Part shown: piece by piece, positions 360-63,771 of the stretch
Layout: each line of letters starts with the position of its first letter
How positions within the stretch are numbered: the first letter of the stretch is position 1
Origin: Bathymodiolus brooksi
Taxonomy: Eukaryota; Mollusca; Bivalvia; Mytilida; Modiolidae
Length of the DNA: 64,000 bases
Direction: 5' to 3'
Assembly (NCBI GenBank): GCA_963680875.1
Contig: OY804580.1
Coordinates: 98,609,353 to 98,673,352, forward strand
Notes under the pieces: model-generated
Seen by the model: only the letters and a program-made list of their open reading frames with translations
Databases searched by the model: none
Told to the model about the DNA's origin: nothing
Made by a program: the position numbers and the translations under genes

Positions 360-1290
360 TAAAACATTTATCATAGATCTTAGAACTAGATTATTGGGTA
401 ATAAACAATGATATCAATATGAATACAGTTATTTTGTGGCCGTCAATATTATTATAGCAAAATAAATACACTAAAATTACATTAAAAAGCAAAAAAACAC
501 AAGCCTATTTTGGTTATCTTGTTTGGTCCCTTTGGTTTATTTGCTCCCAAAGACTTTTAAATACCAATCTTTTAATTATTAGCTTATCTGGTGACAGTTA
601 TTCTAGAAACACGTCGTGCACACTAAATTAGTTATCCGTCATCTTTAGATCATTCAAACACATTTTGTCACCTGATTATAAAATTGCTATGTGCTGCTTC
701 TCTATTGAGCACTCAGTATTAAGAAGTAAGAGCGCAAATAATGATTGGCTTGTAATCAGGTTAATGTTTCCGACTGTGGCCACATGCATATTCATATTTG
801 ACAATTGTTCCAGTTCCACCATAAAAACTCCAGCCAAGCTTGTTGATCTAGTAAAAATCGGACATCCTCATAATCATTTCATCTAAATATAACTTGTTCT
901 CGCCATGATATAGCTGAAAAACCCTCACGTGGAGTAAAACGACAATCAATTGTTGAGTTTAAAGTCAGATAAATTCCTTGTACTTGTAATTTGCGTGAAT
1001 AGTGTTTATAATTATTGAAATATTGATACCATTGCTTTTATCATTTTTTATCAGAATGTTGTATCACAATGTTGTATTGAAATACCAACCAACAAGATTT
1101 AACCATTCGTACGTGATATATTTGTTGATAATTAAAATCTAACCTTTACAGGCAACTTGAAGATTATTTATATGCCCAAATTTGTCATTGGTATTGTCAC
1201 AGCCATGTGAGCAGGCCATCTTGCGACATTTATAACTCGTCATGTATTCATGCTGCAATGTAAATCTTTAGGTTTTTATTTTATGTCGAC
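360..1290. other. AT-rich stretch with no recognised gene
   Basis: No convincing exon, RNA gene or complete element was found. Around 925-950 there is a short match to mussel-type repeat sequence (CCTCACGTGGAGTAAAACGA). The short open frame at 665-886 lacks protein-like composition. Confidence 0.4.
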
Positions 1291-3832: not shown

Positions 3833-4432
3833 TTATGCCTTCCGGATGTAATGTTTACAACTCGCGGATCCAAAAACTCTCTCTTTTCTGTCTTTGATTT
3901 TCTTTCCAACTTGGATTGTGGTCAATGATATAAATTTTGGATCCTTTGAATGCCCCGGCGACACAAAGTGTTGACTCACGGGCAAGAGCGTCTTTTTCTT
4001 AAGGTCACTTCTGGGTCCATACATTCTTTTGTTGAATGGTTGGACACTTTCTCCTACGTACTGCGACCCGCAGACGTGACAGTCAAGGAGGTAAACCACA
4101 TTAGGTGTTTTGCAATTGATATTGCAAAATATCTTACACTCCTTTCCTGTCGTCTTGCTATGAAACGCTTGTGTGTGTTGCAATTGGAGACAGCACTTGC
4201 AACGCTTGTCACCACATTGTTTACACTGGCCGACCGTCGATGAAGGTCTAGATACCGCAGCTCTAACCAGTGTATCCTTAATGCTTTTAGGTCGCCGGAA
4301 CGCTACAACGGGTGGTTCAGGGAACAACTTGGCCAGCGTTTCACTTTTTTCAATTTCTTTCCAATGATGACATTTATTTATCATTTTTGTTTGTTTGCAC
4401 AGTATCGTTAACACTTGTTTCCGATCCGACAT
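3833..4432 (-). pseudogene. PLE C-terminal GIY-YIG endonuclease fragment (remnant 2)
   Basis: An open minus-strand frame of about 200 codons matches the C-terminal region of Penelope-like elements. It has a linker (PEPPVVAFRRPKSIKDTLVR), a Cys-rich zinc-binding-like segment (QCKQCGDKRCKCC), and then the GIY-YIG core (NVVYLLDCHVCGSQYVGES). In active elements this endonuclease nicks DNA for target-primed reverse transcription. The reverse transcriptase is absent. The C-terminus has lost the usual Glu-Phe-Trp-Ile pattern seen in the 61-63 kb copies, so it is a truncated relic. Confidence 0.75.
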
Positions 4433-4439
4433 CTCGTAG

Positions 4440-5225
4440 GTTCATACGTTGGCTACTTTTTCAGACGTTTATAGAATAGAATAGAATAGTTTTATTAAAT
4501 CAATCAAGAAGCCCGTGAGAGCACAGAATTACAGACATTTGCATTTTACACTTACAATGATTTTGATGACTAGTAACATATATGACATATATAAAAAGAA
4601 TAAAAACAAGTATAGATGATCGACACTGCAGGGGCGAAACCACCCATAGTAAGAACAAACTATGGCAGTTTATAGCTATTATTATGATATACATAAAAAA
4701 TATATATTATACAAATATAATATGATGCAGATATAACATGGTGTTCATATCACGAATACTGTTTTATCTTTAAGTAAGGTTAAATTTGCAATGTATATAT
4801 ATAGAGGCCTAGAAGATTGTGCAACGATACCGATAAAGATGTTACAAAATATATATTGACAAAATTTTCGATCAAAAAATGACCTTCTTCAACGTCTTTC
4901 AAAATTAGACTGAGTTTGTAGTGATTAGATGGTATAATTACAACTCACTAAATAGTCAGGCGACAAAGTGTGACGCATTTGAGAATGTTAAAGATTATCG
5001 TTAATTAAAGGTGGTGAACACAAATCCTTAACTTTGTGACAGTAGTAAAATATTCGTTGACTATAAACACTGTGAAAGAAAATATACATAAAAACCTATT
5101 GTTTTCTGTTAATAACGTCCGGATGTAAAACACGGAGTTCTTTAATCCAAAATCTTTCCCGATTCTTATGATGAAAATCACTCCACAGACAGTTCTGTTC
5201 AATTGGGAAAGATATAAAAATATAG
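4440..5225. other. AT-rich stretch with no recognised gene
   Basis: Near 4475-4500 there is a short (AATAG)n run of the kind found at 3' ends of some non-LTR elements. Otherwise no exon, RNA gene or complete repeat is recognised. Confidence 0.35.
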
Positions 5226-6577: not shown

Positions 6578-6720
6578 TGCACGTTCGGTATTGTGAAAGT
6601 TTTCAAGCATTTCCTCTATGTTGCATCCTTCCCTGCACTCTTCGTCAGAACTTCTTTTGTGTCGTTTCAGAAATCTAACTGCGTGCTTTTTGTCAATGTA
6701 TGGTGTGAATTCATTCTCAT
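6578..6720 (-). CDS. Exon 3: propeptide plus Gla domain
   Basis: The acceptor TTTATTTTGCAG ends at 6721 and the donor GTGAGTA starts at 6577. The 143 bases are two leading bases plus 47 codons, so phase 1 in and 0 out. Glutamates occur in the Gla-type pattern around the Cys pair (EEC.EGC..EE...NF). A proline-free basic site KRHKR separates propeptide and mature protein. A chance open frame is unlikely given the combined motif, splice sites and phase agreement. Confidence 0.78.
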
Positions 6721-8801
6721 CTGCAAAATAAATAAAATGATGGGAAGAAATTTAAGGAATACATATGTTACATTCCATTTACAGGTACATCTACTTATTT
6801 TAATTAGAATAATAATTTTATACAATTATAGTACTTTGGTGCGATCAATACATGTTTTACACCAATAAATGTACATAGACAAAGGATCGATAAAAACATG
6901 TATTGACTGATATAAGTTTATTTATAATATCTTATTATATATGAAAAAAAAATGATTTGCTAATCCAAATATACTACATATGCAGCATCTTATGGAATGT
7001 TGTTGTATATAAATGGAAAGTTCACAATGGGAAAATTAAATCCATCTCTTTTTGATCTGTAGTATCCTTTATTTTAATTTTAAAGTTCAGTTGAATATAT
7101 ATATGATCAACATAGTCCCCAAACTTTGAATTGAGTAGTGCACGGGCATCTATATAAGGGAACGTTGAAATTAAACGACCGGTCTAGTTGTTTTCTTCTT
7201 TTTCTTAGTAAAACCTATACATATAGTCTGCTTCGTATAAAACAAATATATTTACCATATATTCTAATAAAATGTAACACTACTGTGGATGATAATATCA
7301 ATTATTTGCACACTAAGTAATACTCACGTTGTGTAGCATTAACACACAGAATGGAGACTTCTGAAATACAATAACAAATACATAATTTGTCTTCTTATTT
7401 TATGGCTTGCCGTGTGGTGAAGTTCCTTGACTTCAGACAAGCATAGCACAATTGACACGGATCCGTGCCCCATCTGCTTCCGCAACGTTTATGGTTACAA
7501 GAGACCACGTTCGGGTGTATCAGGAGTCAGTTCATTTCCCGTCTTTGACCCACAAACACGTATATGGTAGTCATTATACAGCTGAAGCATTGCCGAAAGT
7601 GACGATCAACTCCAATAATCAAAACAAGTCTTTCTTTTTTCTTTTTCTTTTTGGTTTGGCTTAAAAGAAAGGTGTGTCTGTTTCACTTACATGAACGTTT
7701 CTGTTGTCCACTCATTCGTTATTTCATATCTGGTTTATTTCGGTTCTATCCCTATTTATATTTATATTTCACTTTTGGCTATATATATTCACACATGGTT
7801 ACCTTTTAACCGTTATGAACTTCTTCCAATTGACATCTTCATTTTATTGAATTTGCCAAATATTATATCTAAACTGTATTATTTTCGCTTTTCATATATT
7901 ACATTGTATTTGCATACATTTTTGTAGTAATGTGCGTGATAGAGTGTTAAATATTTATTCTAAAACATATATACAGTCCTTCTAATTAGTCTAATCACTT
8001 CAACTACCTATTAAACTGTCGATTTTTCTTACTATTTACCGGATGGGAGCACTTTTTCTGTATTTGTAAACTCCCACTGTGGTGTCAGGCACAATAATAA
8101 CAGTATGTGTAAAATTAATTCCCCAGTATGTAGTGTTCTTTGAAACCCCATATTAGGGTACTGTAAAACACTGCATGACTAAATAACTACAAACATACCC
8201 AGATATAGCGCTTATCGGCAGAAGTAAAGAGTACGAATCGACTGTAGACTAAGGGCTATTTCACACTCATTTTAGAGTATAAGTAATGTTTATTATTTGA
8301 GGACCACACCGTGACGGTGAACCGAAGAACTGCAATAAAAATTGCTGTTCCGTTACTTAAATTGTGCAATGTAATTATTCGCGCTTGTTCATTGCCATCC
8401 ATATCCATTCTTACTAGGGACCGTCGTGGTTGTGATCGTATGGTAGTAGAATTTACAACTACCTATGTAACCCGTGTCTATCACCACTAAAGTTGTGAGT
8501 TCCAACCCCGTTCATGACGAGGTCTACTCGATACAACATCATGTGATAAAGTTTGCGAATGATTTGCGACAGGGCGGTGGTTTTCTCCGGGTACTCCGGT
8601 TTCCTCTACCAATAAAACTGACCGCCACGAAATAACTGAAATATTGTTGAAAGTGGCAATAAACACCATAAACCAAACAAACCTTTCTTACTACAGCAAT
8701 GTTCCTGATTGGTGTAATTGTGTTATAAAATATCAATTAAGTCAGTTAAGTAGTTACTTACCTACGAAGAAGAGGAGAATGATACATGTCATCAAACCCA
8801 T
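6578..8801 (-). CDS. Secreted Gla-domain protein, 5' three exons
   Basis: Exons at 8801-8762, 7360-7328 and 6720-6578 join through introns with good GT-AG sites and matching phases (1, then 1). The product begins with a signal peptide ([17 protein letters not shown]), then a propeptide ([18 protein letters not shown]), then a Gla-like domain ([20 protein letters not shown]). Relative to the KR cleavage site, Tyr -16, Ala -10, Leu -6 and Arg -1 match the gamma-carboxylase recognition pattern of vertebrate vitamin K-dependent precursors. The Gla exon ends at NTERA, where clotting-factor genes also have a phase-0 intron. In family terms, Gla residues bind calcium and membranes. Oddities: C-x3-C instead of C-x4-C, and a short N-terminal loop. 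The 3' exons (phase 0 entry) were not found; they may lie further left or beyond the window. Confidence 0.72.
6970..7095 (-). pseudogene. Reverse transcriptase remnant in Gla intron 2
   Basis: The minus strand reads ELKIKDTTD and, further on, [18 protein letters not shown]. This is a conserved C-terminal stretch of a retroelement reverse transcriptase family whose larger remnant lies at 18440-19005. It is short, frameshifted and non-functional. Confidence 0.5.
7328..7360 (-). CDS. Exon 2: 33-nt micro-exon of the Gla gene
   Basis: Flanked by TTGTATTTCAG and GTGAGTATT. It encodes the end of the signal peptide ([10 protein letters not shown]). Both ends are phase 1 and the length is a multiple of three, so skipping it would keep the frame and shorten the secretion signal. 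Confidence 0.65.
7370..8410. other. Gla intron 1, unclassified part
   Basis: AT-rich intronic sequence. At 8220-8330 there is a diverged match to 55310-55400 (CACACTCATTTTAGAGTAT / CACACTCATCTTAGGGTAT), so part is an old dispersed repeat. No further exon is recognised. Confidence 0.35.
8414..8686 (+). mobile_element. tRNA-related SINE, full-length-like
   Basis: The head carries a degenerate A box (CGTGGTTGTGATCGTATGGT) and B box (GTGAGTTCCAACCCC). A conserved central segment GGTTTTCTCCGGGTACTCCG and a tail ATATTGTTGAAAGTGGCAAT follow. The same order is found at 54040-54290 and, reversed, at 43552-43770. It sits in intron 1 of the Gla gene, antisense to it. Confidence 0.75.
8762..8801 (-). 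CDS. Exon 1: start and signal peptide of the Gla gene
   Basis: The ATG at 8801-8799 begins 13 codons plus one base, ending at a perfect GTAAGT donor (8761). The hydrophobic run CIILLFFV identifies a secretion signal. The start is the first ATG after the conserved upstream segment and is the only one giving the phase needed by exon 2. Confidence 0.68.
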
Positions 8802-8804
8802 AGC

Positions 8805-8860
8805 TTATGTCTAAAACATATCATAAAGTAGACTTTTAAAATAGGCTAACGTTAAATAAC

Positions 8861-8909
<49 letters not shown>

Positions 8910-9160
8910 TGATGGTCTCTCATGGAACAATTCAGGCTATAACGACTTTCATACATTGCATCTGTCTAATCCTTTTCAGTACTTTTCTGAATAAAATATG
9001 TTTAAATTAAATCATGTCTATAACATATCATAAAGTAGACTTTTGATATAATCTAACGTTAAATAACATACAAGCAGGGATGAGAGGGAGAGATAAAGAA
9101 CTTATGATGGTCTCTCATGGAACAATTCACGCTATAACGACTTTCATACATAGCATATAT
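8805..9160. promoter_or_regulatory. Tandem duplication upstream of the Gla gene with a GA tract
   Basis: About 150 bases at 8808-8960 recur at 9012-9155, sharing ACATATCATAAAGTAGACTT, CTAACGTTAAATAACATA, CTTATGATGGTCTCTCATGG and CTATAACGACTTTCATACAT. The proximal copy contains a pure (GA) run of about 44 bases at 8862-8905, while the distal copy has only a short GA-rich part. The first copy starts 4-10 bases upstream of the ATG, so this is the 5' UTR and promoter region of the gene. Confidence 0.6.
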
Positions 9161-9544
9161 CCCAGTCAACTTGAGATACAGAATACTACAAACACCAGAA
9201 TTCAACTCCATATTTTGAGATTCAAATTGTACAAACAAAATTATTTAAATTTTCCAAATTCGACTGTTCCTATTGTATGTTATAACATCACATTAGCCCA
9301 TGAATATAAGTATCAAAGCTGATAACTCTAGACCCTATCTTTGATATCCAAATTTGTTTAGATAGATGCGTTACTGCTTTCCAACAAGGCAATAGAGAAA
9401 GAATTTCTAATTATGTGATCAACACATATTTTACGGTCGCTTTCTTGAATTGGTTTATCGATACCAAAATATATGTTCCCTTGTCATAACATTATCGCAA
9501 CGCTCTTACTCGATTCGGAAGTTATTTACTAGATTTTGAATATG

Positions 9545-9610
9545 GGTTTAACCACGGGTGCCACTAGTGGAGCAGGAACCACGTCATATTTCCGGAGCGT
9601 CTGATATCAT
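9545..9610 (-). repeat. Repeat A fragment
   Basis: GGGTGCCACTAGTGGAGCAG is the reverse complement of the repeat A end. The remainder to 9860 has no recognised feature. Confidence 0.5.
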
Positions 9611-29500: not shown

Positions 29501-32500
29501 TACATTACTAGCGAGGTTGTTAGTACCTGTCTTGCTAAACTATATGTAAAATACCAATACTTTAGAAATTCAAGACATACATTACTAGCGAGGTTGTTAG
29601 TACCTGTCTTGTTAAACTATATGTAAAATACCAATACTTTAGAAATTCAAGACATACATTACTAGCGAGGTTGTTAGTACCTGTCTTGTTAAACTATATG
29701 TAAAATATCAATACTTTAGAAATTCAAGACATACATTACTAGCGAGGTTGTTAGTACCTGTCTTGTTAAACTATATGTAAAATACCAATACTTTAGAAAT
29801 TCAAGACATACATTACTAGCGAGGTTGTTAGTACATGTCTTGTTAAACTATATGTAATATACCAATACTTTAGAAATTCAAGACATACATTACTAACGAG
29901 GTTGTTAGTACTTGTCTTGTCCAAATTTAAATAGATGTAAACTTGTAATAATTCAAGACATACATTACTAGCGAGGTTGTTAGTACATGTCTTGTTAAAC
30001 TATATGTAAAATACCAATACTTTAGAAATTCAAGACATACATTACTAGCGAGGTTGTTAGTGCCTGTCTTGTTTTATTGATGAATATTGGATTATCAAAT
30101 ATAGTATAAAAATAAACTATTTATTACTGAACATATTTTCTATCAATTTTGCCATGTTTTCCGTTCGCCTTAGTAAAGATTAAATGACCCGGTACTGAAA
30201 GCTAGTACTGTACGCGAGACAATTATTGCTTTACCAGTACATGAATAACGACACATAGAATCACTTTGTCAATATTTTTATATCAGTTATATCGTGGTAT
30301 ATTTGAGGATTCCATCAAGGGATAGAATAGAACTTGTGTTCTTCCGTTTTGATGCGTTTTCTATGTAAGACAAGCCATAAAGACACCTGCGCGTGACCTT
30401 GTCTTACATGGCATTGTCAGCCAATCAATTCGGCCGAGTATAATCAATGGAGTCCACTTCTACCACTGCTGTAGTAATATAAATTGTCGTCAATTTTACC
30501 TGAATTTTAACTGATTTCCCCTAATAGATTTAATGCGGTTTTAAATAAGTGTGTATTTACTGCATTGCACGTGGCGTTGTAATATTTTGTGTAGTAAACA
30601 TGACATTGACATGCGAATGAATGAATGAAATCGACATGCTTTGTTTTTAAGTTGAAACGGAAGAAACAGGTACTTGCGCTCGTCCTTATTGAAGATCTGG
30701 TATTTCTTCCACTCTTTGAGAGAAAGTCAGCGTCTTTCCACTCGTTCCGCTACGCTCCACTCGTGAAAAGACGAAATTTCTCACACTCGTGGAAGAAATC
30801 CCAGATATTCAATCGGAACTCGTGTAAGAACCTGTTAATCTATTTATTTCACCAGCTAACCCGCTACATAATGTTTGGCATCCTCTGCGGGATCTATTTG
30901 AAGATATCAGTTGATTTCTTATTGGGTATAGTGATACGAAGCTATTCATAGAAGTAGAAGTTAGCAGGTGTTGAGATGGTGAAAGAAAAATCAGTAGTTC
31001 CCATTCACTTCAAGACAAAATGGAGAACACAACTGTTACCGAAGAGAGTGACATGAATGAAACTGGTCTGAATGAAGAGTCTGAAACTGAAAATGTTGAA
31101 CCAACAACCAGTAGACTTAATTAACCAAGATATAGAATCAGATGAAGAGATGAATGATACTATGATACTTCGCCCACAACTGAGACATAAAACCTTAAGG
31201 AGCAGTACTGGAATATTTGTTCTCCCCAGAGACCAAGAACCCCTAGATATTGACGGCCATCAATTATAGCGGAAGTTCAGGTTGAACCTCCAGCTGACCA
31301 AGCACAAAGTGACAAGGAAAGTCTGTATGGGCTAATGAAATCTGCCTTTCAGGAGATGACGACCCAAGTAGTGGTCGCTATTCAAACAGCTTTTAGGGGA
31401 ATGAAAGGGCATACCCCAGAAAAAGAAAGAACGGATACACCCCCAGAACAAAGAGAAAATGTTAATCTAAGCCAAGATATTAAAAGGGCAGAGAGGCGAG
31501 AGCCATCAAAGTCGAGAAGCTATAGCTATAATGAGTCATTTTCTTCATCTGAAGATACCACTGAGGAATCAGATTTAGAAAGTCTAGCAACTAGTCAAAT
31601 AGTAAGACCAAAACAAAGGAAAAGCAACCATACTGCCATAGCCAGATTACCAGCTTTCACCTTGAAAGAGAAGTGGGAAGTATGGATCAATATATTTGAA
31701 GCGATAGCACGCTTACAAGATTGGAACAATAAAAGTAAGCTGCAGGAATTATTGCCCAGACTTCAGGGAGCAGCTGGAGACTTTGCTTTTGACCAAATGT
31801 CAGAAAACACTAGCTATTCCAAGCTAGTAAGCGAGCTCAAAAATAGTTTTACTGCTGATACAGGAACAGCGAGAACTGTAATTTCATCAAAACCGTTCAG
31901 AAAGATTCCAAATTCCAAGACTTGAAAGGTTTAGTGCTTTGGCCAGTGTAAATGGTTAGCCTTTAACAGAAATGGGTAAAGCTGTTTTTAACATTACCCT
32001 AGGTAGCTTAAACCTTGATAGCGAGTTAATTGTTGCCGAGATCGAAGATGAAGCCCTGTTAGGCTTAGATATCCTAATGAAGGGTAAAGCGGGACCCGCT
32101 GATATCAAATTGAGTGAAGGATTAATATTGTTGGATGGGATAGCTATTCCTTGCACCCAGATAGGTTAACCAGAACCTGTCAAAAACATTACAGCTGCTG
32201 ATGATTGTATCATTCCTCCTAGAAGTGAGGTTATCATAAATTGATAAATTCCATAGTGATAACTTGTCTGGACCACAGAACTACTTGTTAGAACCAAACA
32301 ATTTCTTTGTTGAGAAATATCCAGTAGCAATGGCTTCTTGTCTTGTTGACATTATACATGAAGTTACAAATAAAGTTAGATTGATGAACCCTTTTGACCA
32401 TGAAGTGGACATTAGACAGGATACTGTACTTGGGGAAGTAGAATACCTCTATCTCTTTTTGCAGCAGAAGATTGTACTGAATCACATAATTTTGATAATG

Positions 32501-35500
32501 TAAAGAGGATTACATTGGTTGAGCAGAAACCTGTTACCTGGCCAACTAATGTTGGCATCATAAGAAACATAACTAAGAAAGGTATCTCTGATGGAGGAAA
32601 AAGTGGAATTGTACCACAACATTTAGAGAATTTGTTTGATGAAGCAGTCCAAGAGCGTTCTCCGGAAGAAATCATTATCGTTGCAGAGCTTTCACCAAAG
32701 TTTTCAGACACATTTTCGAAGAATGACACAGATCTTAGTCTGACTAATTTGGTAGAACACCACATAGACACCGGTGATGCAAAACCATTAAAACAACCTC
32801 CACGCAGAGTGCCAATGGCGTATGCTGAGGATGAAAAGAAATTAATTGACCAGATGCAAAGACAGGGAATCATACAGCAATCCAGTTCAACATGGTCTGG
32901 CCCTTTGGTTTTAATCATGAATAAAAATGGCAAGATTAGACCATGTATAGACTATTGAAGACTTAACTCAATAACAAAAAAGGATGCAATTCCTTTACCA
33001 AGAATCCAAGACTGTTTGGACACAGTTTCAGCAGCTACTTTGTTCAGTACATTTGATTTGACCAGTGGGTTTCACCAAATTCCTGCTAATCCTAGAGATG
33101 TTCATAAAACAGCATTTGTGACGAAATATGGGCTTTACGAATATAAAACTTTTCATATGGGCCTTTGTTATGGACCTCCAACTTGTCAGCTTCTGAATGG
33201 GTTACGATGGCAAATGTGCCTCATATATTTAGACGATGTGATTGTCTTTGGTTCAAGTTTTTCAGAACACATTCAGAGACTGGGGACAGTTCTTCAAAGA
33301 ATCCTTGATGCTGGTTTGAAGCTGAAACCTGAAAAAATGTACGATACTGAAACCTGAAGCTACCGTTCTGGGGCATGTTGTCTCACAAAAAGGAATACAG
33401 CCAAACCCCGATAATATAGCCAAAATATTATCTTGGCCTGCACCTAACAATGTCTCTGAAGTTCGACAAAGTTTAGGAATATGACGTTACTACCGTCGAT
33501 TTATAAAAGACTTTTCCTTGATGGTTTAACTCCTTACAGAGCTGACCAAGAAGTCAAATGAATGTATATGGTCCGATGTCTGTCAGGATACCTTTAAGAA
33601 GTTAAAACAAGCTTTCATAAGTTCTGAAATAATGGCGTATCCAGAAGATCATGGATATTTTATACTCGATACAGATGCATGTGACTCCTCTATTGGTGCA
33701 GTATTAAGCCAAATTCAGGATGGACGTCTTCGAGTTATAGCCTATGGTAGTCGTACCCTCAACAAGTCAGAAAAGAATTATTGTATTACAGACAAAGAAC
33801 TTTAGCAGTGCGATATTTTATAGAGTACTATAGACAGTACTTGTTGGGCAGAACTTGTACTGTCAGAACAGATCACCAAGCACTGATTTGGCTCTTTAGA
33901 CTTACAGAACCCAAAGGAAGGATTGCCAGATGGGTTTAAATCCTTTCTGCATTTGATTTTACTGTTGAATACAGAACTGGATCTAAACATGGCAATGATG
34001 ATGCAATGTCCAGATGCTTGAATCCGCGTGAATGTGATTGTCCAGAAACAGACCATTTAGAATACTTGAAATGTGGCCCTTGTGCCAAGTGCACAAACCG
34101 AGCACATGATATGATGAGCTCATTAATAACATTTGCAAGTAATATTAGTAGTAAAGAAACAGAAGTTTTAAATACCGTTAAAACTAGAAGCCAGACCGAA
34201 GATGAAAATATTTGGACAATCTGGAAAGCTGGGTATTCCATAACAGAATTCAAGTCCTTTCTGGAAAATGATGAAGATATAGGCCCTCTTATGCAGTGAA
34301 AAATTGATGGAGCTAGGCCATTAAGATCAGAAATTGAAAAGAATAGTCCTGCAACACGACATTATTGGTTTTTGTGGGATTCCCTTTTATTGCAAAATGT
34401 TCTATTATTCAAGGAATATATGAACCGTAATGGAACTGGTTAACATTATCAATTTCTGACCCCCCAGAAATTCAAAAATGAAATTTTACATCAAATGCAC
34501 AATTCAGTTTTATTTGGTCATTTGGGTAAAAAGAAAACAAAAGACAAATTATCTCAAAGATTTTTCTGGTTTGAAATGCGGGAAGATATTAACATTTGGA
34601 TTCAACAATGCGAAATTTGTGGTGTTATTAAGCCACCAGCAAAAGCATCCAGGGCCCCTCTTGGGAGTATGCCAACTGGTGCACCCTGGGATAAATTAGC
34701 TACTGATATATTGGGACCACTGTCAGTGACCCCTAGAGGGAATATATATATGTTGACTGTCACTGACTATTTTACCAAATGGATAGATGTATTTCCCATT
34801 CCTGACCAAACTGCTGTTACATGTGCCCATATTATTTTGAACGAAATAATGGGCAGATTTGGATGTCCCCTTGCTATGCATTCAGATCAGGGCAGAAATT
34901 ATGAGAGTAAAGTATTTCAAGAGTTATATGAACTTCTTGAAATAAGAAAACTCCGAACAAGCCCCATGAATCCAAAAGCAAATGGACAGATAGAACGTTT
35001 TAATAGAGCCCTTTTAGCCATGATACAATCCTATTTGAGAGGTGAACAAACAAACTGGGATGTAAATTTAGGGTGCTTAGCTGGTGTTTATAGAGCAGCC
35101 CCAAATGAGTCAATAAACATACTTCTTTTTGGTAGAGAAATAAGAATGCCATATGAAATAATAAAAGACGGAATTTCTTTTGGTTTAGAAGAAAATTCAA
35201 AAAATTGGGGATAGCATGCAATAAAAATTAGAGACAGGCTACACAGGGCTCACCATGTGGCAAGAAAACATTTAGCAGTAAATACAAAGCGAAGAAAAGA
35301 TTATTATGATCTTAAATCAAATTTAAATACCTACGAAGTTTATGATAAAGTATGGTATCTCCATGAAACCCGTAAAGAAGGCATTAGCCCAAAATTACAA
35401 CCATATAAATAAAATTTAAAAAAAAAATGACTTCATCGGCCGGTGAATAGCACTTTAATCACATGTTGTTTTTTTGTTTTTTTTTAAATTAATTTCTTCT

Positions 35501-41500: not shown

Positions 41501-44500
41501 ATATCAGTTGATTTCTAATTGGGTATAGTGATACGAAACTATTCATAGAAGTAGAAGTTAGCAGGTGTTGAGATGGTGAAAAGAAAAACCAGTAGTTCCC
41601 ATGCACTTCAAGACAAAATGGAGAACACAACTGTTACCGAAGAGAGTGACATGAATGAAACTGGTCTGAATGAAGAGTCTGAAACTGAAAATGTTGAACC
41701 AACAACCAGTAGACTTAATTAACCAAGATATAGAATCAGATGAAGAGATGAATGATACTATGATACTTCGCCCACAACTGAGACATAAAACCTTAAGGAG
41801 CAGTACTGGAATATTTGTTCTCCCCAGAGACCAAGAACCCCTAGATATTGACGGCCATCAATTATAGCGGAAGTTCAGGTTGAACCTCCAGCTGACCAAG
41901 CACAAAGTGACAAGGAAAGTCTGTATGGGCTAATGAAATCTGCCTTTCAGGAGATGACGACCCAAGTAGTGGTCGCTATTCAAACAGCTTTTAGGAGAAT
42001 GAAAGGACATACCCCAGAAAAAGAGAGAACGGATACACCCCCAGAACAAAGAGAAAATGTTAAACCAAGCCAAGATATTAAAAGGACAGAGAAGCGAGAG
42101 CCATCAAAGTCGAGAAGCTATAGCTATAATGAGTCATCTTCTTCATCTGAAGATACCACTGAGGAATCAGATTTAGAAAGTCTAGCTAGCAACTAATAAA
42201 ATAGTAAGACCAAAACAAAGGAAAAGTAACTATACTGCCATAGCTAGATTACCAGCTTTCACTTGGAAAGAGAAGTGGGAAGTATGGATAAATATATTTG
42301 AAGCGATAGCACGCTTACAAGAATGGAACAATAAAAGTAAGCTGCAGGATATATTGCCCAGACTTCAGGGAATACCCTGAATAGCTATTCCATGCTAGTA
42401 AGCGAACTCAAAAATAGATTTGGAGTCATAGAGAACAAGAAGACATACAGGGTCCCATTTAATAGAAGAAATCAGAAGACAGGAGAGACTGTAGAAAATA
42501 ACAACAAAATAAAAACACTCGTTACTTCGGGTCTCTATAGGCAATGATTGTATTCGTAGATATTTATACATCTAAAATACGATCTTAACGATAGCTGGCA
42601 ACGTTCATAACTAATTCTGGAGGGTCAATCTTATTAACCAGTAAAATCGTGTTTGAGTTGACTAAATGTTTAATTTTGGATTCATTTTAATTACAACAGG
42701 ACCTAAATGGGATAAGAAGGTCAAGGCGTGTGTGTCACTTATTGACAAATATATGATGTATTCACGGAACCACTTATTGAAAAATACAGAACAAGTGGCG
42801 TTTTACAACACAGAGAATGATAATTCGGCTGCACATGGATTAGCATGTAAAAATGGAATCAAATGTGTTGAAAATGTGCAACTGTATAGTATTCTACGTA
42901 AGATTTATTTTCATTGGTTTTTGGTTTGGTTTTGTAGTGTTTAACACCACTTTCAACAATATTTCAGTTATATCGTGGCGTTCAGTTTTATTGGTGGAGG
43001 AAACAGGAGAATACCGCCGACCTGTCTTAAGTCACTGACAAGCGTTTATCTTTATTTTCAATCTAATATAAGACAAACTAGAGAGGTTATACACTATATC
43101 AAGTGGTCCGTTTTCTACATGATGATATTAGTAACTAATAAGAACTTATATATTGTCTCTATGCATAACTATCGTTTCTCAAATCAATAGGCAATTGCTT
43201 ATTTAAATACAGTGTAAGGAAAGTAAAGAAAAAAAAAGTTTGAATTTACCAAAAGGGTAATTAGAAGCCTTAATTTGATGATGTAAAGGCCAAGAGGTAA
43301 TTATTAATGGACAAAGAAACACAGAAAGCTAAAGATTGAGCAACACAAACCCCACTAAACAACCGGAGTGGACTCCAGAATTGATGTTTGAGAGTAGTAT
43401 GTGTGACCCAACGAATCAATCCGAGACGATTCGTGATACATTTCATACAACATACGCGTCGTAATACAACGGATTGTACATTCACATCTTTGCATATGAC
43501 TGTTTTATAAAACAATAAAACACTTAAATGATTTCGAAGAGAATTATGGTGTTTAGCGCCACTTTCAACAATATTTCAGTTATATCGTGGAAGTCAGTTG
43601 TATTGATGATGGAAAACCACGGACCTGTCGTTAGTGACTGACAAAATGTTATCACATAATGTTGTATCCAGTACACCTCACCATGAGCGGGATTATAACT
43701 TTAGTGGTGTAATGCACATGCAGTTGTAAATCTAATTACATTGGGATCACAACCACGATGGTCCCTCGATGAAAATTAAGTATTCACGTTAAACATACAG
43801 TCTCTGGTCAAACGTATTCGGACAAAATGAGTTTTTACTATATATTTCATGTAAAACCACATTTTTGAAAAACATTATTCCAAAGTCGACTCTTGTTCGA
43901 TTTTGATGATTTATTTACCAACAAAAACGGAATTCAATGTAGTTTTACACTGTAATTTTAGCATAAATTTATAATCTATAATTTTTATGAGTTCGCGATT
44001 TAAACACAAAACTAAATTTTGAACGTCAAAAATACAATACAATGATAGTACATTTGAAGACAAATAATTTAAGTTTGTGTTTAAATCATGAACATTTAAA
44101 ATCTGTGCTCCCAAAAAATATTTCAAAATAATCACAGAAAACTAAGTACGTGCTCGCTTCTGTTGGTAAAAATGTCATCAAAATCGAACAAGAATTGACT
44201 TTGGAATAATGCTGTCAAATATTGTGGTTTTATATGAAATATATAGTAAAAAATCATTGACCAGAGACTATATATAATATCAAAGGAATATTTCACGGCA
44301 TTTGACTAATCAATTTCAGATTTTTTTGTATGAATATCCCTGTATTTGATCTGTTTCGATATTATCATAATAAGGGTAATAACAAAATTACCGAACTCCG
44401 AACAATCTTACAAAGGGAAAGTCAAAACTCATAATTATATAAACAGACAAAATCAGTCAACAACCGGAAAACTGTGAAAACCGTAATGACCCTGACTTGG

Positions 44501-47500
44501 TACAGGCATTTCAAAAGAAATGGTGGGTTGAATCATATTTTAAAGCGCCAAACCTCCCGCTCTCATTAGGGTTCAAAGTCTCCGGCTGTCACTATAACAG
44601 TATTTAAATACAGGAACAAAATAGGTAAAATAGTTGTCAAAACAGTACCATATTCAGTGAATGTAAATGTCAAAAACACTTTTACGTCACACATATGCCG
44701 TACAATTGAAAACTTCTGCTCTTTCAAAATTAAAATTATGCAATATAAAAGATATGAAAATGTCTGTATCTTACCTTTCACGAACACTCGTGTTTCCTCC
44801 AGTTTTATGGTGGGGGCCAAGTTGTTCATCGTTTTAGTTGTGTTGTGTGTGTGTGCGTGTTGGTTTTTTTTAGGGGGGATGGTTTCTGTCTTCATCCTGT
44901 GTCCTGTGCAACCTTCGTTGCCAGTGTCTGGTTTGTCCATTCGTGATTGCCCTTTCGGATTTCTCTTACGTTAGTAGTATATGGGGACAGCTCAGTTAGT
45001 ATTTGTGGAGGATCCATGTGGAGGATCCAGAGGATCTGACCATTGCGCATGTTTGACAGGAAGTGACGTCACCGGAAGTCACGTGACTTTTCCCCTTACT
45101 TTTCCCCGTATTTTCCCTTACTTTTTTTCCCGTATTTTTTCCGGTATTTTTTTTCTACTTTCTTCCCGTACTTTTTTCTTAGTAGTAGTACACAAATGTT
45201 GGTTGGGGTGTTCTCTACAACGTACGCGTCCTATATACATAGGAAACTACCCCTCCCCTTTTATGTTCATATATTATGTGTTCTCTACGACGTCCGCGTC
45301 ATATGAACATAGAAAATTCCCCCCTTTTTTCATATATTAGGTGTTCTCTACGACGTCCGCGTCCTATAACCTACAAACTAGCCCTTATCATTATCTGCCC
45401 CTTTCCCGCCATTTTATTTTCATTATCTACTAGCCCTTTCACTGGTTATCTGCCCCTTCCACGCCATTTCATTTTCATAATTACATTATTTATTTCAATA
45501 ATGGTTTTCACCTACGGTGTTTTTGGATATAGACTATGTTGTGTAGTACTCCAAGTAATCTATTACGTCCGCAAATGCGCGCATGTGCGATCTGAAGGGA
45601 CCAAAATTTTATTTATTTAACCTAAAAGAGGATTGAAATGTTTTATTGTACCAACCAATCATATCACTGGAAATTGAACCAATCAGAAGTCGATATTTCC
45701 GGCCGATTAGCCAATCAGATTGTAAGAATTGATTTTATTTTCATTATGTGCGTCCTATAACCTTATTATTTTCTCCGAACTAGCCCTTTTACTGGTTATC
45801 TGCCCCTTTCCCGCAATCTTATTTTCATTTTCCGCTTCCTATAACCTTATTATTTTGTACGAACTAGCCCTTTTACTGGTCATCTGCCTCTTCCCCGCCA
45901 TTTTATTTTCATTATGCGCGTCCTATAACCTTATTATTTTCTACAAACTACCCCTTTCACTAGTTATCTGCCCTTCCCTGTCATTTTATTTTCATAATTA
46001 CATTATTTATTTCAATAATTACATTTCTTACAAAAGTTTGCCACCACCACCACCTTTACCTCCACCACCACCACCACCACCACCAATTTTCCTATCTTTT
46101 CACTATTCAACTTACTTTTCCTCTGTATTTTCCATCTCTTCACTATTCAATTTACTTTTCTTCCATATTTTCCATATCATTTCACTATTCAATTTGCCTT
46201 TCTTGTGTATTTTCCAAATCTTTTCACTATTCAACTTGGGTTTCTTCCATAATTTCCAAATATTTTTCACTATTCAGCTTACTTTTCTTCCGTATTTTCC
46301 CTATCTTATCACTAATCAACTTGGCTTTCTTCATATTTTCCATATCATTTCACAATTTTCTTCCATATTTTCCATATCATTTCATTATTCAACTAGCCTT
46401 TCTTCCGTATTTCCCAAATCTTTTCACTATTCGACTTGGATTTCTTCCATATTTTCCATATCTGTTCACTATTCAACTTACTTTTCTTCCATATTTTCCC
46501 TATCTTATCACTATTCGACTTGCCTTTCGTCCATATTTTTCATATCATTTCACTATATTCTTCCATATTGTCCCTATCTTTTCACTATTTTCTTCTATAT
46601 TTTCCATATCATTTCACTATTCAACTGACTTTTCTTCCATATTTTCCATCTCTTTTCACTATTCAACTTATTTTTCTTCCACACTTTCCAAATCTTATCA
46701 CATTTCTTCCATATTTTCCCTAGCTTTTCACTATTCAACTTACTTTTCTTCCATATTTTCCCTATCTTATCACTATTCGACTTGCCTTTCTTCCATAGTT
46801 TCCATATCATTTCACTATATTCTTCCATATTTTCCCTATCTTTTCACTATTTTCTTCTGTATTTTTTATATCCTTTCACTATTCAACTGACTTTTCTTCC
46901 ATATTTTCTATATCTTTTCACTATTCAACTTATTTTTCTTCCACACTTTCCAAATCTTATCACATTTCTTCCATATTTTCACTATCATTTCACCATTCAA
47001 CTTACTTTTCTTCCATATTTTCCCTAGCTTTTCACTATTCAACTTACTTTTCTTCCATATTTTCCATCTTATTTCACAATTTTCTTCTGTATTTTCCAAA
47101 TCTTTTCACAATTCAACCCACCTGTCCTTCGCATTTTCCATATCTTTTCACTATTCAACTTACTTTTCTTCCGTATTTTTCATATCTTTTCACTATTCAA
47201 CTTGCTTTTCTTCATTTCTTACTCCCCCACTTACACAACTCACTCAATGATATTTCCAACATAATTAAGTTTTAAAATTCTCCTCTGATTTAAATTTATT
47301 TCAAAGAATACCCATTGCCCTAAAATATATTGTGTTCTCCAGCTATTTGAAGAGTATTGAGCAATGTTTTCCAGTTATCAGAAACAAGCATTAACAGTTA
47401 TGATATCTCCTTTATGTACAAACTGCCACGATATAACTGTAATATTGTTGAATGTGGAATTAAACACCATAAACCTAACCCTTTATTTACAAAGACATAT

Positions 47501-50500
47501 ACCTACCTACCTATCTATCTACATTTTTATCAGAATTATAGATTTTATTCAATTTTATTGCTAGTTATTTTCCTATCTTGATGAGTTTCAAATTTCCACA
47601 ATCAAATTTATTTAACATAACAGCCTAACACAGTGTTCTATTTTTAGAGCAGTGAGAAAGCTTACTTCCTGAACAGGACAGGGTTTTAGTATATATTTAC
47701 CTGCCAAAGGCAAGCAAATATCTGTATATAAGTTTAAATATATCTATTTTCCTGCAAAGGGCAAGTAAAACGCTGTGTATATAAGTGTAACAATCGATTT
47801 CCAAATAGCCATTTTTTGATACGTATTATATAGTATTTCTCTTTCTGCACAGGTATATGTCCATATGCAGAGTCATGACCCCCGCCCCCTTTATCCTCCA
47901 CATAAAGAGTTATTCCCCCTACTGTAGTATTATCCTTGCACATACAGATTTGCAACTTATTCCCCACATAAAGAGTTATATCCCCTATTACAGAGTTATC
48001 CCTTCAGATGCAGAGTTATTCCCCTTACTGTAGGGCATAATGTAAACTTAAATAAATTACATTTTTCTTCCATATTTTCCATATCTTTTCACTATTCAAC
48101 TTATTTTTCTTCCATACTTTCCAAATCTTATCATTATTCAACTTATTTTTATTCCATATTTTCCCTATCATTTCACCATTCAACTTACTTTTCTTCCCTA
48201 TTTTCCCTATCTTTTCACTATTCAACTTACTTTTCTTCCATATTTTCCATCTCATTTCACAATTTTCCTCTGTATTTTCAAAATCTTATCACTATTCAAC
48301 TTACTTTTCTTCCATAATTTCTTTATTTTTCACTATTCGACTTACTTTTCTTCTGTATTTTCCATATATTTTCACTATTCAACTGACTTTTCTTCCGTGT
48401 TTTCCATATCTTTTCACTATTCAACTGACTTTTCTTTCATAATTTCCATATCATTTCCCTATTTCCTTCCATATTGTCCATATCTTATCACTATTCAACT
48501 TGCCTTTCTTCCATATTTTCCATATCATTTCATTATTCAAGTTATTTGTTTCCATATTTTCCATATCATTCTACTATTCAACCGACTTTTCTTCCGTGTT
48601 TTCCATATTTTTTCACTATTCAACTTTCCTTTAGTCTGTATTTCCCATATCTTTTCACCTTTCAACTTACTTTTCTTCCATATTTTTCGTATCTTTTCAC
48701 TTTTCAATTTACTTTTTTTCCCTATTTACCATATCATTTCACTATTCAACTTACTTTTCTTCCGTATTTTCCATATCTTTTCACTATTCAACTTACTTGT
48801 CTTCCATATTTTCCAAATCTTTCCACTATTTTCTTCCATAATTTCAATATCATTTCACAATTTTCTTCCGCATTTTCAATATCTTTTCACTATTCAACTG
48901 GGGTTTCTTCCGTATTTTGATGAGTCATCGAAGTGCTGTGACATTCGACACTGTCTGCTTAATTATAGTTGTCTCTTCGTTTATCTCTCCGTTTTTTTAT
49001 ACTTACCTTGCTGTTTTCTGTTTCTAATTTCTACTTCACGTCACAATACCACCAATTTTCTCCCTCCTCCTCCTCCTCCTCCTCCTCCTCCACTACCACC
49101 ACCACCACCACTACCACGATAACGTTGAATTTCCACCCAAAAAACGAAAAAACGTAAACAAAAACCTTAACAAAACGAACAAATAGTCATTAAAAAGTTA
49201 AATGGACACGAAAAACGTGATTAAAACTGAAAAGATAACGTGAAAATGTCACTACAAACGTGAAACACACGTAAAGAATACGACAAAAAATCGAAAAAAT
49301 GAGAAAATGTTCGTATCTTTTCACTTTTCAACTTTCTTTTCTTCCATATTTTCCATATCTTTTCACTATTCAATCTACCTTTCTTTCAGTTCCGAGTATT
49401 CATTTTGACCATGAGCTTTAGCAGTGCATTTATTGTCTGTTTTGCAAGAACATATAGTTGTTGGTTCCGAATGTTTATTAGAAAATTGTCTGTTTTTCAG
49501 GTACATATAGATGTAGGTTCCGAGTATTCATTTTGACCATGAGTTTTAGCGGTGCATTTATTGTCTGTTTTGCAAGAACATATAGTTGTTGGTTCCGAAT
49601 GTTTATTAGAAAATTGTCTGTTTTTCAAGTACATATAGTTGTAGGTTCCGAGTATTCATTTTGACCATGAGCTTTAGCAGTGCATTAATTGTCTGTTTTG
49701 CAAGTACATATAATTGTAGGTTCCGAATGGTTACTTCACGCTTTAATTATCAGTACAGCTACAAAAATATGCAACTGAAATTTGTTGTTTCTGTAACCAT
49801 AATTTATTTGGGAAAGGTGTGCTACCGAAAAAACGTCACCGGAAATGGCGTTACTGGAAGTGACGTGTCCAGAAGTGACGTGACCGGCAGTGACATCAGT
49901 CACGTGACCGGAAGTGACGTCACAGGAAGTGACGTTATTTCCCGCGCTTTTTTCTTACTAGAGTAGTAGTACAAAATGTTCCCTTACACGAGGATACGAA
50001 AGGAATAATCAGAAGCCGTCAATCGAATGACAAACAACAATGGGACATTTTGTACTACTACTCTAGTAAGAAAAAAGCGCGGGAAAATAACGTCACTTCC
50101 TGTGACGACACTTCCGGTCACGTGATAACCAGTAAAAGGGCTAGTTCGTAGAAAATAATAAGGTTATAGGACGCACATAATGAAAATAAAATCAATTCTT
50201 ACAATCTGATTGGCTAATCGGCCGGAATTATCGACTTCTGATTGGTTCAATTTCCAGTGATATGATTGGTTGGTACTATAAAACATTTCAATCCTCTTTT
50301 AGGTTAAATAAATTCATTTTTGGTCCCTTCAGATCGCGCATGCGCGCATTTGCTGACGTGATAGACTACTTGGAGTACTACACAACATAGTCTATATCCG
50401 AAAACACCGTAGGTGAAAACCATTATTGAAATAAATAATGTAATTATGAAAATAAAATGGCGAGGAAGGGGCAGATAACCAGTTAAAGGGCTAGCAGATA

Positions 50501-56775: not shown

Positions 56776-59700
56776 AAAAAAGGAGCTTCAATAGTCGTAG
56801 TGTTACCTTGTCTCGTAAGGCAAATCTAGGGATAGGCGTAAGACATGTATATAAGCGTGTGTAGATGGTACATATATACTTAATATTATAATTTGACAGC
56901 AATCTAACTCAGCAATTTTTAATATATTGGATAGGATAATGAAGAATTATTCATTATACAGTCACAGGAAATAAAGTATATTATACAAACGTCTAGAAGC
57001 AAGTGACAACCATACAATATATCTGTCCCACTGGATCTCAAAGTTACTTTAAAGGATACTAGGTTAATACTAAATATTATATACGTCTGAAAATTAAACC
57101 AAACAGTGTTAGAATTAGATTTTAGAGCTGTCAAATTTTTGTTGTTCCCTCGACGGGATTTGAACCCACACCATTGTTACACTGCAGCACCATTCGCTTA
57201 GCCTTACGTCCAGCGCCCTAGACCACTCGACTACATCCACTCCCTAAAAAAGGAGCTTCAATAGTCGTAGTGTTACCTTGTCTCGTAAGGCAAATCTAGG
57301 GATAGGCGTAAGACATGTATATAAGCGTGTGTAGATGGTACATATATACTTAATATTATAATTTGACAGCAATCTAACTCAGCAATTTTTAATATATTGG
57401 ATAGGATAATGAAGAATTATTCATTATACAGTCACAGGAAATAAAGTATATTATACAAACGTCTAGAAGCAAGTGACAACCATACAATATATCTGTCCCA
57501 CTGGATCTCAAAGTTACTTTAAAGGATACTAGGTTAATACTAAATATTATATACGTCTGAAAATTAAACCAAACAGTGTTAGAATTAGATTTTAGAGCTG
57601 TCAAATTTTTGTTCTTCCCTCGACGGGATTTGAACCCACACCATTGTTACACTGCAGCACCATTCGCTTAGCCTTACGTCCAGCGCCCTAGACCACTCGA
57701 CTACATCCACTCCCTAAAAAAGGAGCTTCAATAGTCGTAGTGTTACCTTGTCTCGTAAGGCAAATCTAGGGATAGGCGTAAGACATGTATATAAGCGTGT
57801 GTAGATGGTACATATATACTTAATATTATAATTTGACAGCAATCTAACTCAGCAATTTTTAATATATTGGATAGGATAATGAAGAATTATTCATTATACA
57901 GTCACAGGAAATAAAGTATATTATACAAACGTCTAGAAGCAAGTGACAACCATACAATATATCTGTCCCACTGGATCTCAAAGTTACTTTAAAGGATACT
58001 AGGTTAATACTAAATATTATATACGTCTGAAAATTAAACCAAACAGTGTTAGAATTAGATTTTAGAGCTGTCAAATTTTTGTTCTTCCCTCGACGGGATT
58101 TGAACCCACACCATTGTTACACTGCAGCACCATTCGCTTAGCCTTACGTCCAGCGCCCTAGACCACTCGACTACATCCACTCCCTAAAAAAGGAGCTTCA
58201 ATAGTCGTAGTGTTACCTTGTCTCGTAAGGCAAATCTAGGGATAGGCGTAAGACATGTATATAAGCGTGTGTAGATGGTACATATATACTTAATATTATA
58301 ATTTGACAGCAATCTAACTCAGCAATTTTTAATATATTGGATAGGATAATGAAGAATTATTCATTATACAGTCACAGGAAATAAAGTATATTATACAAAC
58401 GTCTAGAAGCAAGTGACAACCATACAATATATCTGTCCCACTGGATCTCAAAGTTACTTTAAAGGATACTAGGTTAATACTAAATATTATATACGTCTGA
58501 AAATTAAACCAAACAGTGTTAGAATTAGATTTTAGAGCTGTCAAATTTTTGTTCTTCCCTCGACGGGATTTGAACCCACACCATTGTTACACTGCAGCAC
58601 CATTCGCTTAGCCTTACGTCCAGCGCCCTAGACCACTCGACTACATCCACTCCCTAAAAAAGGAGCTTCAATAGTCGTAGTGTTACCTTGTCTCGTAAGG
58701 CAAATCTAGGGATAGGCGTAAGACATGTATATAAGCGTGTGTAGATGGTACATATATACTTAATATTATAATTTGACAGCAATCTAACTCAGCAATTTTT
58801 AATATATTGGATAGGATAATGAAGAATTATTCATTATACAGTCACAGGAAATAAAGTATATTATACAAACGTCTAGAAGCAAGTGACAACCATACAATAT
58901 ATCTGTCCCACTGGATCTCAAAGTTACTTTAAAGGATACTAGGTTAATACTAAATATTATATACGTCTGAAAATTAAACCAAACAGTGTTAGAATTAGAT
59001 TTTAGAGCTGTCAAATTTTTGTTCTTCCCTCGACGGGATTTGAACCCACACCATTGTTACACTGCAGCACCATTCGCTTAGCCTTACGTCCAGCGCCCTA
59101 GACCACTCGACTACATCCACTCCCTAAAAAAGGAGCTTCAATAGTCGTAGTGTTACCTTGTCTCGTAAGGCAAATCTAGGGATAGGCGTAAGACATGTAT
59201 ATAAGCGTGTGTAGATGGTACATATATACTTAATATTATAATTTGACAGCAATCTAACTCAGCAATTTTTAATATATTGGATAGGATAATGAAGAATTAT
59301 TCATTATACAGTCACAGGAAATAAAGTATATTATACAAACGTCTAGAAGCAAGTGACAACCATACAATATATCTGTCCCACTGGATCTCAAAGTTACTTT
59401 AAAGGATACTAGGTTAATACTAAATATTATATACGTCTGAAAATTAAACCAAACAGTGTTAGAATTAGATTTTAGAGCTGTCAAATTTTTGTTCTTCCCT
59501 CGACGGGATTTGAACCCACACCATTGTTACACTGCAGCACCATTCGCTTAGCCTTACGTCCAGCGCCCTAGACCACTCGACTACATCCACTCCCTAAAAA
59601 AGGAGCTTCAATAGTCGTAGTGTTACCTTGTCTCGTAAGGCAAATCTAGGGATAGGCGTAAGACATGTATATAAGCGTGTGTAGATGGTACATATATACT

Positions 59701-60156
59701 TAATATTATAATTTGACAGCAATCTAACTCAGCAATTTTTAATATATTGGATAGGATAATGAAGAATTATTCATTATACAGTCACAGGAAATAAAGTATA
59801 TTATACAAACGTCTAGAAGCAAGTGACAACCATACAATATATCTGTCCCACTGGATCTCAAAGTTACTTTAAAGGATACTAGGTTAATACTAAATATTAT
59901 ATACGTCTGAAAATTAAACCAAACAGTGTTAGAATTAGATTTTAGAGCTGTCAAATTTTTGTTCTTCCCTCGACGGGATTTGAACCCACACCATTGTTAC
60001 ACTGCAGCACCATTCGCTTAGCCTTACGTCCAGCGCCCTAGACCACTCGACTACATCCACTCCCTAAAAAAGGAGCTTCAATAGTCGTAGTGTTACCTTG
60101 TCTCGTAAGGCAAATCTAGGGATAGGCGTAAGACATGTATATAAGCGTGTGTAGAT

Positions 60157-60675: not shown

Positions 60676-61632
60676 CATTTAAATAAATGTTAAATTAGAA
60701 ATAGAAATAAATATAAAAATGAGACATTATTGGTAAATGTATCAAATAACATTGTCAAAATATTGTTGAAAACGGTATGATACCCAAACTCATTCAAAAA
60801 ATCGGCCCGCCAGTGTGGAATATATACTTTGGGCCAATAGAGCAAACTGTATGTCCTAATACGACTGGGGGATATCAACACGAATAGGAGTCAAGAGAGG
60901 ATATTACTTTTTCTCATTGATTCCATTCGGTGATAAGGTCTTAAGTTTTCTAATCCAGAAGCTGTCCCTTTCCTGTCTGCTTTTATCATCCCACTTGGGG
61001 TTATGGTCAATTATGGTGACCTTCAGTTTGCCGAAAGAATCATGGTGGCCCGTCGATCTGAGATGTCTGCTGAGTGGAAGGTCAGGTTTGCAATTTGCAT
61101 CGCTTCTGTGGCCATTCAAGCGTTTACAAAGTTGTTGTTTAGTTTCTCCGATGTATTGGAGACCACAAATTGCACATTCCAGGAGGTAGATAATATTTTC
61201 TGTCTTGCAGTTGGCATTGCAGTATATGATGAATGTTTCTCCTGTATGTGTGCTGCTGAATTTTTGTGTGCATTGGATGTTTTTGCACGTCATACATCGT
61301 CTCGAATCACATTTTTGACACTGACCATTGTAGGCAGATCGAGGGGAGATGTCAGCTCTCACCAAGATGTCTTTCAAACTTTTGGGTTTCGTGAAGGCCA
61401 AGACGGGTGGTTCTTTGAAGATTTTACACAGTTCTGGGTGTTTTTGTATGGTTGTCCAGTGCTCACGAACGATGCTGGATAAATTACTGAGCGCAGGATG
61501 GTATGTGATGACAAATGGCACTCTGTTGTTCGCGTTCTTTTCTTTATATTGGATGAGGTCTTTTCTGTCAATACCACTTGCTTTGTTAAAACAATGGTTA
61601 ATGCTCGCATTGTTGTAACCCCTCTTTTTCAG
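60676..61632 (-). pseudogene. PLE copy A, 5'-truncated endonuclease part
   Basis: The coding part (61632 to 60904) is open for about 240 codons. It has linker IFKEPPVLAFTKPKSLKDIL, Cys-rich QCQKCDSRRCMTC, GIY-YIG core IIYLLECAICGLQYIGETKQ and a C-terminal ERDSFWIRKLKTLSPNGINE. The frame appears to continue to 61830 only because it runs into antisense sequence of copy B. The reverse transcriptase is missing. The 3' flank 60676-60903 equals that of copy B. Confidence 0.85.
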
Positions 61633-63050: not shown

Positions 63051-63771
63051 GAGGGGTTACAACAATGCGAGCATTAACCATTGTTTTAACAAAGCAAGTG
63101 GTATTGACAGAAAAGACCTCATCCAATATAAAGAAAAGAACGCGAACAACAGAGTGCCATTTGTCATCACATACCATCCTGCGCTCAGTAATTTATCCAG
63201 CATCGTTCGTCAGCACTGGACAACCATACAAAAACACCCAGAACTGTGTAAAATCTTCAAAGAACCACCCGTCTTGGCCTTCACGAAACCCAAAAGTTTG
63301 AAAGACATCTTGGTGAGAGCTGACATCTCCCCTCGATCTGCCTACAATGGTCAGTGTCAAAAATGTGATTCGAGACGATGTATGACGTGCAAAAACATCC
63401 AATGCACACAAAAATTCAGCAGCACACATACAGGAGAAACATTCATCATATACTGCAATGCCAACTGCAAGACAGAAAATATTATCTACCTCCTGGAATG
63501 TGCAATTTGTGGTCTCCAATACATCGGAGAAACTAAACAACAACTTAGTAAACGCTTGAATGACCACAGAAGCGATGCAAATTGCAAACCTGACCTTCCA
63601 CTCAGCAGACATCTCAGATCGACGGGCCACCATGATTCTTTCGGCAAACTGAAGGTCACCATAATTGACCATAACCCCAAGTGGGATGATAAAAGCAGAC
63701 AGGAAAGGGAAAGCTTCTGGATTAGAAAACTTAATACCTTATCACCGAATGGAATCAATGAGAAAAAGTAA
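63046..63771 (+). pseudogene. PLE copy B endonuclease, open frame
   Basis: About 240 codons nearly identical to copy A (few substitutions, e.g. QQLSKRLNDHRSD versus QQLCKRLNGHRSD). The GIY-YIG motif and Cys pairs are intact. Because it is out of frame with the RT, a functional polyprotein is not made. Confidence 0.85.

Follow-up and report, generated by a model that had tools for sequence, protein, structure and literature searches.

A 64,000-nucleotide stretch of Bathymodiolus brooksi DNA, referred to as a whole as the window, carries on its minus strand what we read, with a probability of about 80%, as the 5' portion of a gene whose product is secreted or exposed at the cell surface. This protein would bear a mini Gla segment devoid of the membrane keel, encoded by a two-exon module that is homologous to the corresponding vertebrate exon pair. 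The analysis shows the exons and their phases, a family of such exons with conserved residues, and co-linear domains downstream.

Exons of the window gene

Exon 1 (8762..8801, 40 nt) contains the start codon and the signal-peptide core and ends in phase 1 with the donor GTAAGT. Exon 2 (7328..7360, 33 nt, phase 1 to 1) supplies the end of the signal peptide (splice sites TATTTCAG and GTGAGT), and exon 3 (6578..6720, 143 nt, phase 1 to 0) encodes a gamma-carboxylase-type propeptide and a shortened Gla-like segment (splice sites TTTTGCAG and GTGAGT). As proposed in a preceding sequence-only reading, these three minus-strand exons have consensus splice sites and phases 1, 1 and 0; joined, they form 72 codons with no stop. 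A threshold-based scan for signal-type first exons with phase 1, covering window position 9600 to the EGF-like exon described below, returned exon 1 alone. The close copies L012 and L013 retain exon 2 together with its two splice sites; 2 and 1 of the 33 nt differ, respectively, and by eye all of these differences are synonymous. The introns flanking exon 2 are, however, likewise about 90% alike. The sequence directly upstream of exon 1 occurs twice (8807-8966 and 9014-9161), with two repeat families at 81% and 90% identity, and is possibly a promoter or 5' region that underwent duplication.

The joined exons also have the signal peptide and propeptide that had been proposed, with Tyr at -16, Ala at -10, Leu at -6 and a basic end: the propeptide ends in RFLKRHKR, with positions counted back from the KR end. 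An aromatic residue at -16, Ala at -10 and Leu at -6 make up the propeptide recognition rule as stated in PMC5578492. The mature Gla-like segment that follows contains seven Glu. Exon 4 (1144..1252, minus strand, 109 nt, phase 0 to 1; HEYMTSYKCRKMACSHGCDNTNDKFGHINNLQVACK) is absent from the preceding reading; it has a good acceptor (CATTGCAG) and a weak donor (GTTAGA). Its product continues HEYMTSYKC..., of which residues 1-8 align with the vertebrate aromatic stack and the remainder is a four-Cys module.

The motif E-x2-[ERK]-E-x-C-x6-[EDR], which we take to be the core of the Gla signature, occurs once in the six frames of the window, compared to 0.015 times per shuffled window (200 shuffles). 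Against an HMM of vertebrate propeptide-plus-Gla sequences, the exon-3 ORF ranks first among the 1134 window ORFs of at least 30 aa (E 0.03). When the exon-3 peptide was shuffled, 8 of 5000 shuffles reached the real score, and exon 3 alone is therefore moderately significant at most. Searching the 47-codon exon with a Gla HMM had been suggested as a check, and here the expectation failed: Pfam gave no hit for exon 3 alone, and joined to exon 4 the product still scores below the cut-off. For a three-row alignment, Pfam returned no Gla and one stray match, PBECR3 (E 0.059). A six-frame genome search with PF00594 found nothing and is uninformative because 14 control genomes gave nothing either. 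The observation is settled by an 11-member family, and chance resemblance is rejected by the motif and HMM tests together with the profile shuffles given below.

Elsewhere in the window, ORFs that by eye resemble GIY-YIG ends of Penelope-like elements lie at 3836-4441 (no Pfam match), 60907-61839 and 62941-63768, and ORFs like LTR-retrotransposon gag-pol, again by eye, at 31254-35211, with a second gag-like copy at 41852-42193. At 56922-59996, a 470-bp unit with near-identical ORFs recurs at least seven times, and 44001-48000 is occupied by a long repetitive array with strong strand asymmetry (GC skew -0.34) and Phe/Ser/Tyr-rich reading frames.

An exon family and its vertebrate counterparts

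The 2.0-Gb genome of the window contains 11 exons of the exon-3 type, three on contig C6, one on C8, four on C14 and three on C19. Six of them matched with E <=0.001 and five with E >0.001 (weakest 0.15). Exon 4 lies downstream of four of these five; the fifth, L019, lay outside the downstream survey, and its sequence and that of L018 read alike. All 11 frames are open, and each exon ends with a phase-0 donor GT[AG]AG. The protein collection yielded two relatives, P0001 and P0002 (79% and 75% identical), no others, and none of 127-402 aa, while the viral-contig and genome-contig collections searched gave no relative.

Ten of the genome exons (L019 left out) were aligned with P0001 and P0002. 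The propeptide Ala and Phe-Leu, both Cys and five core Glu are invariant in all 12 rows; these Glu are the equivalents of factor IX residues 17, 21, 26, 27 and 30. The window exon lacks counterparts of the loop Glu (factor IX 7, 8 and 15), and the N-terminal loop with its hydrophobic keel is absent from the window gene. The shortened loop and the C-x3-C spacing noted at the outset are genuine, C-x3-C replacing C-x4-C in 12/12 rows. Of the proposed recognition set, Ala and Phe-Leu stand in every row, whereas an aromatic residue six positions before the invariant Ala was seen by eye in only 6/12 (the five closest rows and L021). In L016, L018, L020 and L021, one to two more residues separate the Ala and Phe-Leu columns from the basic end. 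The exon 3 boundary, which had been likened to that of vertebrates at an NTER position, does fall two residues before the aromatic-stack positions, but NTER itself is not conserved. It was dropped as a diagnostic motif because the relatives carry NYEL (P0001) or DTEY (P0002). Two copies and no others, L017 and L021, have a longer, partly hydrophobic stretch before the first Cys (RDFWTTVEEEC and RWFVSSVRTTPSEEC, respectively), possibly a remnant or precursor of the membrane keel.

The putative stack positions of exon 4 carry Tyr or His at +3, Met instead of Trp at +4 and Tyr at +7 in nine of nine copies, and in six copies this part aligned with vertebrates without gaps. A search for a strict aromatic 'FW' exon came back empty because exon 4 reads YM..Y.

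For comparison, we used ten vertebrate propeptide-plus-Gla sequences entered by hand, four of which were verified at full length against PDB sequences. Aligned to this set by hhalign, three family rows gave a probability of 75% and a score of 26.5, the highest of 300 shuffles reaching 18.8. The 12 rows gave 96.4% (P 1.2e-9) and a score of 45.9 vs a maximum of 20.0, with none of 300 column shuffles as high, and the seven distant paralogues on their own 96.7%. Six rows extended by the first eight exon-4 residues reached 96.75% (P 3.2e-10; 49.2 vs 25.1 in 200 shuffles). With the vertebrate set restricted to the four PDB-checked sequences, the values were 95.7% for 12 rows and 96.4% for the six rows plus stack. 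In an HMM test including the stack, five of six rows scored above all 3000 of their own shuffles, and L017/L037 was equalled by 2/3000.

The Pfam Gla model is curated and independent of the hand-entered set. With exons 3 and 4 joined, Gla was the top family for five of nine products, with E 9.5e-5 at best and 0.0027 for the window, and it was also top for the 293-residue window product assembled below (E 0.014). The match spans the exon 3/4 junction and extends to profile position 40-41 of 41. None of the nine products reaches the PF00594 cut-off of 27 bits (best paralogue 22.9, window exons 3+4 18.3) and four lack any Gla match, which is why we speak of a divergent form. A PDB profile search returned no individually significant Gla protein (E 0.43 to 1), with a fibroblast growth factor ranking higher. 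This best match, FGF7 (E 0.09 and 0.06), was judged a coincidence, as no common propeptide was seen.

As judged by sequence comparison, the propeptide-Gla exon and the 0-to-1 exon after it are divergent homologues of the two corresponding vertebrate exons. The initial proposal that exon 3 corresponds to the vertebrate propeptide/Gla exon is supported by the profile comparisons and by Pfam Gla on exons 3+4, and its phase 1 to 0 is that of vertebrates, with a 0-to-1 exon next. The propeptide, the core Glu, the Cys and the exon phases are kept; the membrane keel and the C-x4-C spacing are not. The modest single-sequence scores, the different Cys spacing and the absent keel would also fit convergence, in which a carboxylase-recognised prepropeptide like that of cone-snail Gla peptides became joined to a short Glu/Cys segment of unrelated origin. 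However, propeptide, core and stack match co-linearly with an intron in the same place and phase, curated Pfam Gla appears only once the next exon is joined, and L017 and L021 have their longer, partly hydrophobic loops; we consider convergence unlikely. Identity of the exon phases with those of vertebrate genes such as factor IX is what a recent gain of a true Gla domain from a vertebrate, by contamination or horizontal transfer, would also produce. Against this stand eleven copies on four contigs that are strongly diverged from one another and have departures of their own in common, namely C-x3-C, the four-Cys module and TSP1, and we give such a gain next to no weight compared to homology in divergent form.

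Downstream exons and divergence between copies

The sequence downstream was surveyed for ten of the 11 Gla loci (L019 left out), over about 10 kb each and 18 kb for the window gene. Exon 4 follows on the same strand in nine of the ten loci and is missing in L013/L023. The exon 4 of the window cross-matches L022, L024, L025, L036 and L037, and that of L038-L040 was found with queries from other loci. TSP1 repeats, up to four per locus, follow in seven of ten. The other three, L025, L039 and L040 on C14, make up a subfamily in which Gla and exon 4 are present but no TSP1 repeat was found over the next ~8 kb. A co-linear exon 4/TSP1 control on 70 kb of control sequence gave no matches. All three C6 copies have an EGF-like exon downstream in the same orientation, and in L024 an EGF domain above the Pfam cut-off comes after four TSP1 repeats. 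Two extra EGF-like exon copies (C6:98403146 (+) and C6:98508104 (+)) have no listed Gla match upstream. Two more matches are probably spurious, one to exon 4 in antisense orientation in L036 (E 0.001) and a weak one to TSP1 at 8845 in L023.

The window gene itself continues on its strand beyond the window, with a TSP1 exon at contig C6 98608943-98608785, an EGF-like exon at 98608019-98607897 (both phase 1-1) and a candidate 273-nt exon at 98606491-98606219 that is common to L023. Joined to exons 1-4, these give 293 residues in frame with no stop. Scanned as isolated exons, TSP1 of the window gene (27.3 bits) and of L024 (37.2 bits) exceed the TSP_1 cut-off of 21.6, though TSP_1 is absent from the Pfam scan of the whole 293-residue product. 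In the EGF-like exon of the window gene, six Cys follow the EGF pattern, and no Pfam EGF model exceeds its cut-off. A direct Gla-to-EGF splice is ruled out by phase conflict. Past the candidate exon come long ORFs that match FN3 weakly, and no protease was found in the ten downstream ORFs scanned with Pfam. Because exon 4 is downstream in 9/10 loci and TSP1 in 7/10, the gene reads as signal-propeptide-Gla-Cys module-TSP1-EGF-like. This is a layout other than that of a clotting factor; a clotting-factor architecture finds no support for the gene as a whole, as Cys module, TSP1, EGF-like and FN3-like ORFs follow instead. L023 (C6:98438500-98448499, Gla copy L013) is without exon 4, yet TSP1 and the EGF-like exon follow. 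The L013 frame would not join without exon 4, and this copy may therefore be damaged or otherwise spliced.

The three C6 copies differ from one another at 1-3 of 69 nt in the propeptide and at 7-11 of 72 nt in the mature part, where every Glu and Cys is kept. Synonymous to nonsynonymous codon differences in the mature part are 0:9 between the window exon and L013, 2:4 between the window exon and L012, and 1:6 between L012 and L013; with a nonsynonymous share of 0.82 expected by chance, these counts do not prove positive selection. A nearly fixed propeptide next to a variable mature part is what one would expect were docking and calcium binding important and the surface free to vary. Conversely, the paralogues could be passive duplications of a mobile exon that is now a decayed or non-expressed relic. 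The C6 copies have intron sequence in common (88-92% identity upstream of exon 3, pieces of 67-95% downstream), L013 lacks exon 4, and the mature part changes at about intron pace, all of which fit a relic. Yet frames are open and donors intact in 11/11 copies, the propeptide has hardly changed while the mature Glu and Cys all persist in the C6 copies, and the exon order persists on C6, C8 and C19 and, in part, on C14. We hence regard a relic as improbable, more so than convergence, and prefer a gene that encodes a secreted or cell-surface protein.

Proposed product and known systems

The predicted protein would comprise a signal peptide, the propeptide, the mini Gla, the four-Cys module, TSP1, an EGF-like domain and probably long FN3-like exons. 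The signal peptide would direct it into the ER, where the propeptide would most likely dock on the animal's own predicted gamma-glutamyl carboxylase and several of the seven mature Glu would be converted to Gla. A furin-type protease is predicted to cleave after RHKR. The Gla-calcium helix may stiffen the N-terminus in a calcium-dependent folding step, and the protein could bind matrix, glycans or microbes in a calcium-dependent manner, jointly with the TSP1 and EGF-like domains; we propose such a role because these domains point there. As the loop bearing the hydrophobic keel is missing, the protein is unlikely to insert into phosphatidylserine membranes.

These findings suggest that the Gla module arose long before blood clotting. 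We give even odds to the further proposal that the module of propeptide plus Gla core and aromatic stack predates the protostome-deuterostome split and here heads a multigene Gla-TSP1-EGF family. The keel-less Gla segment of this family would vary quickly between copies with Glu, Cys and docking site fixed, and would serve as a calcium-dependent tip for recognition or matrix binding instead of anchoring the protein in a membrane. With this family the age of the Gla exon can be tested, and it indicates that docking site, Glu/Cys core and stack can occur in the absence of the membrane keel on which clotting depends. No molluscan Gla-domain gene was found by title or abstract in the literature searched, by which we do not claim its absence from print. 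The usual targets of the Conus and Drosophila carboxylases, venom peptides aside, are an old puzzle. A multigene family with a carboxylase-type propeptide and a Gla-like core provides named candidate substrates for invertebrate carboxylases, such enzymes being known in Conus and Drosophila (PMC12112360).

Thrombospondin type-1 repeat proteins resemble the window gene and L024 in the TSP_1 domain above cut-off, whereas the window gene has a Gla-like N-terminus before the repeats. To our knowledge, no such combination of a Gla-like N-terminus with TSP1 repeats has been described. Gas6, protein S and the PRRG transmembrane Gla proteins have an N-terminal calcium-dependent Gla module as well and are not proteases; they differ by a full loop and are not known to contain TSP1 repeats. 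Conus Gla peptides (conantokin precursors) are not known to have a Gla domain, disulfide core or stack exon. Their likeness lies in being carboxylase-dependent Gla peptides of a mollusc (PMC12112360). Factor IX, factor X, prothrombin and protein C share with the window gene the signal peptide, the -16/-10/-6 propeptide with its dibasic end and the Glu/Cys core. They also share the 1-to-0 exon, the 0-to-1 exon bearing the aromatic positions and the phase 1-1 modules that come after it. In contrast to these clotting factors, the window gene has no keel, a C-x3-C spacing and Met for the stack Trp, and where they continue with EGF or kringle domains and a protease, it continues with the Cys module, TSP1 and EGF-like domains.
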